Under the pieces are notes generated by a model, which searched no databases, was not told where the DNA came from, and saw only the letters and a program-made list of their open reading frames with translations. The position numbers were made by a program, and so were the translations under genes. Below, piece after piece: positions 12,702 through 52,423 of a stretch of 64,000 nt of DNA. This DNA comes from Roseicyclus marinus (GTDB lineage Bacteria > Pseudomonadota > Alphaproteobacteria > Rhodobacterales > Rhodobacteraceae), in the NCBI RefSeq assembly GCF_036322625.1, contig NZ_AP027266.1, positions 2,483,001 to 2,547,000 on the forward strand. The letters are read 5' to 3'. Within the stretch, counting starts at the first letter, position 1. Every line of letters starts with the position of its first letter.

Positions 12702-12799
12702 TTCATCTTTCCAAAAATATGCAATCCCGCCGGTCACGCCCCGCGCGGCCCAAGGGATCGCCCCCGCCGCTGGCAGGCGGCGGTCGCGGCGGCGGGGGC
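12702..12799 (-). repeat. dispersed Rhodobacterales element, copy A (fhs-folD spacer)
   Basis: Read on the minus strand, this spacer carries a GC-rich hairpin (arms 12789-12799 and 12760-12770), then GGCGGGATTGC, a T-run and TTTTTGGAAAGATGAAG ending just before folD. The tail matches other copies at 32203, 43460, 49081, 51113 and 58007. The purine-rich end lies in the folD translation-initiation region, so the element may influence folD expression. This family is common in Rhodobacteraceae intergenic DNA. Confidence 0.75.
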
Positions 12800-43459: not shown

Positions 43460-43513
43460 GGGGGCTCTGCCCCCGGCCTGCGGCCTCCCCGGAGTTTTTT
43501 TGTCAAGATGAAG
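43460..43513 (+). repeat. dispersed Rhodobacterales element, copy C
   Basis: Hairpin GGGGGC-TCT-GCCCCC (43460-43474), then GGCCTGCGGCCTCCCCGGAG, a run of seven T and GTCAAGATGAAG. It lies just after the slyX stop and could also stop transcription of slyX, since the T-run follows GC-rich hairpins. A further imperfect palindrome (43518-43549) spans the end of the convergent MFS gene. Confidence 0.85.
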
Positions 43514-48572: not shown

Positions 48573-49973
48573 ATGGAAACCAGGTTTCTTCTGAACGGGG
48601 AACCTCAGGTCGCGGATACGGGCGCGACCACGACGCTGCTCGACTGGCTGCGCGAGCATCAGCGGCTGACGGGCACCAAGGAAGGGTGCAACGAGGGCGA
48701 CTGCGGGGCCTGCACGGTCATGGTGACCGACCCCGACGGCACGGCGCGCGCGCTCAATGCCTGCATCCTGTTCCTGCCGCAGCTCGCGGGGCGCGCAGTG
48801 CGCACAATCGAAGGGATCGCGGGGCCGGACGGCAGGCTGCACCCCGTCCAGCAGGCGATGATCGACCACCATGGCTCGCAATGCGGCTTCTGCACGCCGG
48901 GCTTCGTCGTGTCGATGGCGGTGGCGCATCTGACCGGGCGGCAGGATCACGACGACCAGCTGGCGGGTAACCTGTGCCGCTGCACGGGCTATGCGCCCAT
49001 CATCCGCGCCGCCCAGGCGGCAAGCACGGCCCCCATCCCCGACTGGATGCGAAAGGATGCCGAAACGCTCCGCGATCCCGGCTTCACCTTTCCAGAAATA
49101 TGCTCTTCGGGGGGCTTGCCCCCCGCCTGCCCCACCACGGCCGACGACCTGGCCGATTGGTACGAGGCAAATCCAGACGCCACGCTCATCGCGGGGGCGA
49201 CCGATGTGGGGCTTTGGGTGACCAAGGGCTTGCGCGATCTTGCGCCTGTCGCCTTCCTGAACCAATGCGCCGATCTGCGCGGGATTGTTGCGGATGATGA
49301 GACGATCCGCATCGGGGCCATGACCAGCATCGCCGAACTGGGCGCCTTCATGGCCGACCGGCACCCGTCCTTCGCCGAACTGATCCGGCGCTATGGCTCG
49401 GTGCAGGTCCGCAATGCCGCGACGATCGGGGGCAATATCGCCAATGGCTCGCCCATCGGCGACAGCCCGCCCGCGCTGATCGCATTGGGGGCGCGCCTGC
49501 ATCTGCGCAAGGGCGCGGGGCGCCGGGTGATCGCGCTGGAGGATTTCTTTCTCGACTACGGCAAGCAGGACCGCGCGCCCGGCGAATTCGTCGAGGCCGT
49601 GTCGATCCCGGTCCAACCCGACCGGCTGGCCTGCTACAAGCTCTCCAAACGGTTCGACCAGGACATTTCCGCCGTCTGCGGGGCCTTCACCATCACGGTG
49701 ACGGAGGGAAGGGTCGCCGCCGCGCGCATCGCCTTCGGCGGCATGGCGGGCGTGCCCAAGCGCGCCGCCCATGTGGAGGCGGCCCTTCTGGGCCAGCCTT
49801 GGGAGGAGGCGACGATCCGCGAAGCACAGGAAGCTTTCGCGCAGGATTTCACACCGCTCTCCGACATGCGCGCCTCGGCCGGCTACAGGCTCCGGGCGAC
49901 ACAGGGGATGCTGATGCGCTATTTCCTCGAGACGCGAGGGGACGCGGTGGATGTGCTGGAGGTGCGGGCATGA
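48573..49973 (+). CDS. xdhA: xanthine dehydrogenase small subunit XdhA (2Fe-2S, FAD)
   Basis: 466 residues from ATG 48573. Electron-transfer chain of xanthine dehydrogenase. The two 2Fe-2S clusters are bound by C39, C44, C47, C64 and by C104, C107, C135, C137. The FAD domain follows from about 190 ([37 protein letters not shown]). Residues about 170-188 in the inter-domain linker are encoded by an in-frame copy of a dispersed repeat (49081-49136). No clear Shine-Dalgarno is visible. ATGA overlap with xdhB. First gene of the xdh-nup operon. Confidence 0.95.
49081..49136 (-). repeat. dispersed element copy D, inside xdhA
   Basis: On the minus strand: GGCAGGCGGGGGGCAAGCC hairpin, then GAGCATATTTCTGGAAAGGTGAAGC. 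It matches copies A and B, with TTTCTGGAAAGGTGAAG against TTTTTGGAAAGATGAAG. In the xdhA frame it encodes [18 protein letters not shown] with no stop. The hairpin arms are GGGGGGC and GCCCCCC. Confidence 0.82.
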
Positions 49974-52423
49974 GTGTCGCCAAACCGCTGCCGCACGATG
50001 CGGCCCCGCTCCATGTCACGGGACAGGCGCGCTATATCGACGACATCCCCGTGCCTGCGGGCTGTCTGCACCTGGCCTTCGGGCTGTCGCCCATCGCCAG
50101 GGGGCGGATTAGGGACCTCGACCTCTCCGCCGCCCGGTCGGCACCGGGCGTTGTCGAGGTGATCGCGGGTGCCGATCTCGATCCGATCCCCGATTGTTCG
50201 CCCTCGGCCCATGACGAGCCGCTCCTGTCGGACGGGACGATCCATTACGCGGGCCAGCCCCTGTTTCTCGTGGCCGCGACAAGCCATCTGGCCGCGCGCC
50301 GCGCCGTGCGCCTCGCAAGCCTCGATCTGGCCGAGGAGACGCCGATCCTCGGCGTCGACGAGGCGCTCGCGGCCAATTCCCGCTTCGAGGATGGGCCGCG
50401 CATCTATGCCAAGGGCGATGTGGAGGCCACGCTGGCCCGCGCCCCCCGTATTCTCGAGGGCCGGATCGAGGTCGGCGGGCAGGAACATTTCTACCTCGAA
50501 GGGCAAGCCGCCCTCGCCCTGCCGCAAGAAGGGGGCGACATGATCGTCCATGCCTCGACCCAGCACCCGACCGAGATCCAGCACAAGGTCGCCGATGCGC
50601 TGGGCCTGCCCATGCATGCCGTCCGCGTCGAGGTGCGGCGCATGGGCGGCGGGTTCGGCGGCAAGGAAAGCCAGGGCAATGCGCTGGCCATCGCCTGCGC
50701 GCTCATCGCAGCGCGCACCGGGCGGCCCGCCGCAATGCGCTATGACCGCGACGACGATTTCACCATCACCGGCAAACGCCATGACATCCGCGTCGATTAC
50801 CGGGTGGGCTTCGACGAGACGGGGCGGGTTCTGGGGGTGGATTTCACCCATGCGCTGCGCTGCGGCTGGTCGATGGACCTGTCGCTGCCGGTGGCCGACC
50901 GGGCCATGCTGCATGCCGACAATGCCTATGACCTGCCCGCCTGCCGCATCACCTCGCACCGGCTGAAGACCAACCACCAGAGCGCCACCGCCTTTCGCGG
51001 GTTTGGCGGGCCGCAGGGCATGGTGGGGATCGAGCGGGTGATGGACCATGTCGCCCATGCGCTCGGCCGCGACCCGCTGGAGGTGCGGCGGGTGAATTAT
51101 TATGCCGAGGCGCAGGCGGAGCCTGCGGGAGCCTCCGGCGGGAGTTTTCCTGCAAAGATGAAGCAAGGCGTGCGCCTCGAGACTGCCGATCTGGCGGGGC
51201 GGGGGGCCGTGGCCGTGCCGCAGAGCGCGGGGGGCAGCCAGCGCTACGGTGGTGCGCATTCGCCGGTGCCGGTGCCGGGCCGGGACGGGCTGACACCCTA
51301 CGGGATGAAGGTCGAGGATTTCATCTTGCACGGGCTGACCGAAAGGCTGGCGGAGAGCTGCGATTATGCCGGGCGGCGGGCGGCCATCGCACAGTGGAAT
51401 GCCGCCAATCGCGTGCTCAAGCGCGGCATCGCGCTGACGCCGGTGAAATTCGGCATCTCCTTCACCCTTACGCATCTGAACCAGGCCGGTGCGCTGGTGC
51501 ATGTCTACCAGGACGGGTCGATCCAGATGAACCATGGCGGGACCGAGATGGGACAGGGTCTGTTCCAGAAAGTGGCGCAGGTGGCAGCACAGCGCTTCGG
51601 CCTCGGCATGGACCGGGTGAAGATCACCGCGACCGATACGGGCAAGGTGCCCAACACCTCCGCCACGGCGGCCAGTTCCGGCAGCGATCTGAACGGGATG
51701 GCCGTCCGGGCCGCCTGTGACGAGATCCGCGCGCGCATCGCCGCCGTGGTCGCGCCCGACTTGCAGGCCGCGCCGACCGAGATCCTCTTCGAGGAGGGCA
51801 TGGTCCGGGCCGGGGGCGCCGAGATGTCCTTCGAGGAGGCGGTGAAACGAGCCTACATGGCGCGCGTCAGCCTGTCGGCGACGGGGTTCTACCGCACGCC
51901 CGACCTGCAATGGGACCGGATCGCGGGACAGGGGCGGCCGTTTTTCTATTTCGCCTATGGCGCGGCCTGTTCGGAGGTGGTGATCGACACCCTGACGGGC
52001 GAGAACCGCATCCTGCGCACCGATATCGTGCATGATGCGGGCGCCAGCCTGAACCCCGCGCTCGACATCGGGCAGGTGGAGGGGGGCTTTGTCCAGGGCG
52101 CGGGCTGGCTCACCACCGAGGAGCTGGTCTGGGACGGCCAGGGGCGGCTCAGGACGCATGCGCCATCGACCTACAAGGTCCCGGCCTGTTCGGACCGGCC
52201 ACCGGTGTTCAACGTGGCGCTCTGGGACCAGCCGAACCGGGCCGAGACGATCTATCGCTCCAAGGCGGTGGGCGAGCCGCCCTTCATGCTGGGCATCTCG
52301 GTCCTGATGGCCTTGTCGGACGCCTGTGCCGCCTGTGGCCCGCACTATCCCGACCTTCAGGCCCCGGCGACGGCAGAGGCGGTTCTGGCCGCCGTCGACC
52401 GGGCGCGGGGGGCTCTGCCATGA
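49970..52423 (+). CDS. xdhB: xanthine dehydrogenase large subunit XdhB (molybdopterin)
   Basis: 817 residues. Binds the molybdenum cofactor and oxidises hypoxanthine and xanthine. Conserved blocks: [11 protein letters not shown] (E233), [12 protein letters not shown] (R343), [20 protein letters not shown], and the late Glu in [12 protein letters not shown] that acts as base. About 55 residues (roughly 380-437) are inserted compared with the usual join NYY-x-TPYGMKV. The first 18 come from a translated repeat (51113-51163). It overlaps xdhA and xdhC as ATGA. Confidence 0.95.
51113..51163 (+). repeat. dispersed element copy E, inside xdhB
   Basis: Sense-strand copy: imperfect inverted repeat around CGCAGGC, GGAGCCTCCGGCGGGAG, then TTTTCCTGCAAAGATGAAG. 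It is open in the xdhB frame and encodes [17 protein letters not shown]. It is the opposite orientation to the copy in xdhA. It keeps the element's right-end word AAAGATGAAG exactly as in copies A and B. Confidence 0.85.

Follow-up and report, generated by a model that had tools for sequence, protein, structure and literature searches.

A bipartite site translated within xdhA of Roseicyclus marinus, one of a dispersed set whose spelling follows the genome

The matS/MatP system of E. coli organises the terminus, and its matS site is palindromic. DNA uptake sequences (DUS) are shorter than about 21 bp. In the Neisseriaceae they form species dialects that vary about a constant core, and one genome can hold two of them; copies occur within genes as well as near terminators, the protein ComP binds them specifically, and the copy numbers cited run from 943 to over 7,000 (PMC3630211). 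Intragenic REPs of the GTAG and CGTC families are described as lying mostly between unidirectional or convergent genes, with some translated in frame and one site common to recB of two Xanthomonas species (PMC3733652). Rickettsia palindromic elements (RPEs) are about 150 bp long, encode a conserved peptide and place extra in-frame residues in unrelated genes (PMC10969869). For ZapT of Caulobacter, the accessible portion of the source says that no consensus site was found (PMC7188993). No description of the site reported here was found in the literature searched, as far as the accessible parts of the sources go, and such a search does not prove that none exists.

The xdhA site and other copies in the window

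The window is the whole stretch of DNA analysed, 64,000 nucleotides. Its relevant features are:

12702..12722, plus strand: intergenic copy, arms exact, spacer AA
32205..32225, plus strand: intergenic copy, arms exact, spacer GA, then a G-run hairpin to about 32264
43485..43512, minus strand: diverged copy of the G-run kind with 3 mismatches against the general pattern; putative hisS lies downstream
48573..49973, plus strand: xdhA, xanthine dehydrogenase small subunit (Fer2, Fer2_2, FAD_binding_5, CO_deh_flav_C)
49083..49103, plus strand: bipartite site in the FeS-FAD linker of xdhA, TTCACCTTTCC-AG-AAATATGC, residues 171-177
49109..49124, plus strand: hairpin GGGGGG-CTTG-CCCCCC adjoining the xdhA site
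49970..52423, plus strand: xdhB, large subunit gene, assigned by place and sequence
51131..51162, minus strand: antisense in-gene copy in xdhB, TTCATCTTTGC-AG-GAAAACTCCCGCCGGAGGC, translated within xdhB

The xdhA product scored 588.9 bits against TIGR02963 (cut-off 467). The first ATG of the next frame, which we take to be xdhB, overlaps the xdhA stop, and the gene downstream of the diverged copy is presumably hisS. The initial annotation had noticed that 49081-49136 resembles an intergenic element at 12702 and 32203 and is translated in frame inside the FeS-FAD linker of XdhA. Our analysis bore out both observations. The 21-mer TTCATCTTTCCAAAAATATGC, with up to 3 mismatches, had three matches in the window (12702, 32205 and 49083), all on the plus strand, with 0.00 expected from 100 shuffles; the xdhA frame is open across site and hairpin, which together encode residues 171-184. 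The antisense xdhB copy and the diverged copy at 43485-43512 were absent from that annotation.

In a predicted structure of XdhA, built on 42 homologues, residues 175-182 form one of two segments that score below 50 in confidence, and the mean over residues 171-180 is 48, as would be expected of a flexible stretch. A search of the PDB with the translated site peptides found nothing, and an Rfam scan of the window gave no family at gathering scores.

Architecture and distribution in the genome

In the whole genome (3.55 Mb) the 21-mer had 53 matches with up to 3 mismatches, and the reversed pattern had none. The constant part was found to be a bipartite site, TTCATCTTTCC-N2-AAATATGC, with 53 copies of this main subfamily at up to one mismatch. 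With the two spacer bases left free, the arms were exact in 46 of the 53 copies and one letter off in the other 7, while eight different letter pairs occupied the spacer among 54 rows tabulated, in which a few sites are counted twice. A second subfamily, TTCTCTGTTTC-N2-AAATATCC, had 26 copies at up to one mismatch.

Contexts were read for 50 of the 53 sites plus xdhA, with genes taken from our own simple codon-bias caller. Of the 50, 2 were in genes and 48 were intergenic. Divergent intergenic regions were avoided: 20 of the 48 sites lay between genes opposite to the site's strand, 12 between genes on its strand, 15 between convergent genes and 1 between divergent genes. The 25 sites read in a second genome gave 6 opposite-strand, 5 same-strand, 10 convergent and 1 divergent, with two called inside reading frames, one of them xdhB, and one without a right neighbour. 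The co-directional counts, 20 and 12, therefore indicate no strong strand rule. A replication-strand rule for orientation was rejected as not convincing (33 versus 20). On annotated plasmids, no gene was annotated under the match in 58 of the 60 records listed of 82 with a match, but many of these plasmids are related and the gene table is incomplete.

These contexts might suggest a site that works in RNA, because its antisense strand reads as a hairpin followed by GCAUAUUU-NN-GGAAAGAUGAA and could be a terminator, a processing site or a protein-binding site near mRNA ends. Consistent with this, copies sit at gene ends and away from divergent regions, the right-hand neighbour was on the minus strand at 35 of 48 intergenic sites, and strong hairpins (z < -1.5) were more frequent on the site's hairpin side than on the other (14 versus 6 of 50; mean z -0.71 versus -0.26). 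The strong hairpins at some sites also count against a pure DNA site, which needs none. However, the paired hairpin difference was not significant (p 0.15), the site is sense in xdhA and antisense in xdhB, and co-directional pairs carry it in both orientations in both genomes. Nor did the sites show the pattern of an intrinsic terminator, with a U run after a stable hairpin oriented with the upstream gene; strong hairpins stood at 14 of 50 sites and both orientations were present. The two orientations favour DNA over RNA, although not decisively, and we regard an RNA-level site as unlikely, if the best placed of the alternatives.

Main-spelling copies lean to the terminus side of the chromosome (Rayleigh p about 3e-4), with 41 of 53 between 0.96 and 2.54 Mb against 23.6 expected in this span, which was chosen after looking. 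The second subfamily is even, with 12 of 26 in the same span against 11.6 expected. The terminus near 1.70 Mb is a rough fit to sampled skew, and the sequence at the contig start is one that we take to be DnaA-like.

Two further arrangements were seen. In the window genome, two divergent sites lie 188 bp apart (G000:C1:1022679 and 1022867), a spacing repeated in G001, G002, G003 and G009 that may enclose a small gene or RNA under conservation. At L346 (G162:C5), two inverted sites flank a palindrome, with both arms running on into a GCCGGAGGC-type stretch; the pair thereby forms one large inverted repeat.

Spelling of the sites between genomes and within genes

The spelling was found to differ between genomes. 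At up to one mismatch, the AAATATGC spelling has 53 copies in the window genome and 55 in G002, and TTCATCTTCCY-N2-AAATACGG has 43 in G001, 44 in G003 and 35 in G009. G001 has in addition 15 copies of TTTCC-N2-AAATACGC, and G004 has AAATACGC in 20 matches listed of 62, one of which is its xdhA. Counted as ATGC versus ACGG spelling at up to one mismatch, the window genome has 53 versus 1 and G003 has 7 versus 44. The second subfamily also varies, reading TTCTCTG in 24 of 26 copies of the window genome and TTCTCCG in 17 of 17 of G001.

G003 is the closest relative compared (XdhA 89%) and has a different spelling. Its sites were chosen by that spelling (43 of its 44 matches), and 12 of the 53 window-genome sites fall outside the comparison. 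Of the 43, 41 share their neighbourhood with a window-genome site, at about 80-93% BLAST identity around them, and the sites were therefore inherited. The pairs were reduced by hand to a single best match for each site, with cross-matches removed. Across these 41 pairs, which include the sites in xdhA and in an RNA methyltransferase gene, positions 1-8, 10, 14-18 and 20 differ in 2 of 615 cells, whereas position 19 (T here, C in G003) and position 21 (C here, G in G003) differ in all 41. The two letters of the spacer are unlike in 28 and 17 pairs, position 9 in 34 and position 11 in 10, and ungapped flank identity is 0.62-0.81. This indicates that the sites stayed in place and were re-spelled, that in xdhA included, where codon 177 is TGC (Cys) in the window and CGG or CGC (Arg) in relatives, CGG in G003. 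When the G003 loci were scanned for any spelling, 43 had the new and 1 the old, but most of these loci were preselected by the new spelling and the whole-genome counts (7 versus 44) are the fairer check. A mutational bias is an unlikely cause, since the same transversion is seen at each of the 41 sites although the bases around it drift.

At 7 of the 41 paired sites of G003 (L405-L409, L411 and L412) position 9 is still T, and 6 of these sites continue with a G-run or a CCGCCGGAGGC stretch; there may be two site classes with two readers.

The copies within genes tend to follow their genomes. The xdhA copies of G001, G002, G003 and G004 have their own genome's spelling exactly, and those of the window genome and G009 have one mismatch to it. 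In G005, G008 and G010 the xdhA copy is of the second subfamily, with 0 or 1 mismatch, and their genomes contain that subfamily too; in G007 it matches its genome in part, and G006 falls outside this comparison. G011 has no recognisable xdhA copy and G012 a decayed one, and the xdhB copy of G006 is the only ACGG match of that genome. For 26 in-gene copies from 21 genomes, the summed distance to copies of the own genome among the matches listed was 56, against 100.9 (sd 7.1) when permuted (p about 5e-5); 20 of these copies were hand-picked (p about 5e-5) and six were added later. The own genome was nearest or tied for 17 of the 26. Taken alone, the 16 xdhA copies gave 28 versus 62.8 permuted (p about 5e-5) and the 10 xdhB copies 28 versus 38.2 (p 0.012), with another genome nearer for 6 of the 10, the window's own included. 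Therefore xdhA tracks the genome spelling closely, weakly in L086, L104 and L229, and xdhB loosely. Shared descent of spelling and gene could explain part of this match.

Our survey of XdhA covered 217 genes (215 distinct proteins) from 13 genus genomes, the window's included, 80 named loci and a one-per-genus family sample of 124, which leaves out L297 and 20 of 145 genomes (best matches 44-54% identical). The XdhA proteins of the same-genus genomes G002 and G009 are identical to ones in records named Roseicyclus. An automatic scan found the site in 55 of 215 linkers in sense orientation at up to 5 mismatches and in none of 215 in antisense; in the one-per-genus sample it was found in 25 of 124 genes. 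A further 9 decayed copies recognised by eye bring the carriers to 64, of which 50 have the site in frame 0, 9 in frame 1 and 5 in frame 2. The initial annotation had suggested aligning XdhA homologues and had put the added residues at about 18. Homologues without the site do have shorter linkers with different residues, and no site-less homologue sharing the linker residues was seen among the 215 proteins read. The figure of 18 is too high as a net gain, because the median linker is 65.5 aa with the site (n=64; 64 aa in the window) versus 55 aa without it (n=151). On a FastTree tree of XdhA with the linker removed, presence of the site changes at least 33 times (mean 55, range 46-61, in 300 shuffles) and the frame among carriers at least 6 times, which indicates that the site came and went, or slid, repeatedly. 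At the linker place, the crystal-structure enzyme of R. capsulatus reads FTLAQLSSGVRGQTAPAF, near the translation of the site-bearing L283 (FTLPEVPSGVRGQTAPAF), and this may be a decayed copy, judging from the sequence. Six linkers (L078, L135, L301, L302, L303 and L306) are long and have another motif, WG-R-P-TGA, and that of L304 is expanded by a tandem repeat of GASSPPGPGTTA.

Of 119 xdhB genes, 115 were usable, and 65 of these have the antisense copy at one fixed place, at up to 3 mismatches; one of the 65 (L121) may be chance. A sense copy was present in 1 of 115, and control windows gave 0 and 2 of 115. A third gene, for an RNA methyltransferase like RlmL (a 200-residue piece scored 151.8 bits, under the curated cut-off), carries a full antisense copy with hairpin in the window genome; in several genus genomes its copies are recognisable or decayed. 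An exact-arm match in argS (L311, G000:C1:1171773) was rejected as an in-gene insertion because 11 relatives show ordinary homologous codons at the same length. In the argS of G005 two letters of the arms are changed synonymously, and the site in the window genome may be new or a coincidence.

The initial annotation had taken the element for a dispersed palindrome inserted into the gene in frame. In-frame translation inside XdhA stands; a mobile palindrome, a REP- or MITE-like element that would have been inserted in frame several times, is improbable. The many presence changes on the XdhA tree agree with it, as do the xdhA and xdhB elements of L070, which are long, nearly identical and have a hairpin in common, and REPs translated in frame are on record from other genera in the consulted part of PMC3733652. 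Against it, the hairpin is inconstant, 41 of 43 sister-genome sites are at orthologous places, and spacer and flanks have drifted around conserved arms, whose spelling changes together. Copying, by transposition or conversion, is disfavoured because the spacer would travel along. In the 60-nt flanks of 50 sites, the GTAG tag was found in 0 on the right and 1 on the left (CTAC 2 and 4), and CGTC in 13 right and 17 left (its complement GACG 21 and 9), counted over the whole flank. No gene for a REP-associated tyrosine transposase was found in the window genome (PF01797 at E 0.001; controls positive in 5 of 14 genomes). Insertion in a looser sense may still have happened in xdhA, given how often the site was gained or lost there.

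Gene conversion among copies, which would keep the arms alike, is less probable still. It would fit the genome-wide homogeneity and the L070 pair, but its tracts must end inside 21 bp, since homogenisation does not extend to spacer and flanks, and in G003 the base at position 9 depends on the site group. That the peptide is selected, as a functional linker motif of xanthine dehydrogenase, is hardly credible: frame 0 is the commonest in xdhA and one frame prevails in xdhB, but the same DNA core, with AAATA kept in all three xdhA frames, gives unrelated peptides, positions 15 and 18, both third in their codons, are conserved in 50 and 48 of the 50 frame-0 copies, most copies are intergenic, and residues 175-182 are predicted with low confidence.

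A putative reader and comparison with known systems

We consider that the xdhA stretch is one of tens of two-part sites selected as nucleic acid and read by a putative sequence-specific factor, with a probability of roughly 0.57. We infer that a trans-acting reader exists and acts on DNA rather than RNA, and it would most likely be a DNA-binding protein. When its specificity shifts, the genome's sites would shift their spelling, in-gene ones too, although not always at once, and the encoded peptides would be a by-product tolerated in loops. By analogy with DUS dialects, a common reader whose specificity has moved would explain the re-spelling. In-gene copies presumably do the same job as the others, and the leading guess for this job, held with low confidence, is that they mark the ends of genes or the chromosome's terminus side. 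The frequent sites in xdhA and xdhB across the family are the most puzzling part. It is a tentative proposal, at somewhat less than even odds, that Rhodobacteraceae mark gene ends and a few in-gene places (xdhA, xdhB) through a fast-evolving DNA-binding reader whose shifts rewrite dozens of sites, even altering enzyme residues.

This would be a clean case of apparent genome-wide co-evolution of a dispersed site and its reader, and since sister species spell the same loci differently, the reader should be findable as a protein that tells the spellings apart. It would also mean that enzyme sequences can be shaped by a signal in the nucleic acid: residues in the linker and loops of xanthine dehydrogenase would be by-products of the signal, and perhaps this holds for the crystallised enzyme of Rhodobacter capsulatus as well.

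Like the RPEs, the site places additional in-frame residues in a protein; unlike them, it occurs in frames 0, 1 and 2 of xdhA and has no fixed frame. The three frames and the opposite orientation in xdhB therefore show that it is not a peptide cassette. It resembles REPs in that 47 of 48 intergenic sites lie between unidirectional or convergent genes by our own simple gene caller, but it differs from them in that the hairpin is not a constant core, being strong at 14 of 50 sites while the arms are exact in 46 of 53, and in that sites are orthologous between sister genomes and have a species spelling. The apparent bias of the main subfamily to the terminus side recalls matS/MatP and ZapT; the palindromic form of matS and the lack of a consensus for ZapT set those systems apart, as does the even spread of the second subfamily. 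Like DUS, it is a short genome-wide site with species dialects round a constant core, more than one dialect in a genome and some copies within genes; unlike DUS, it is about 21 bp long and two-part, and its 53 and 26 copies of two subfamilies are below a density of about a thousand or more.
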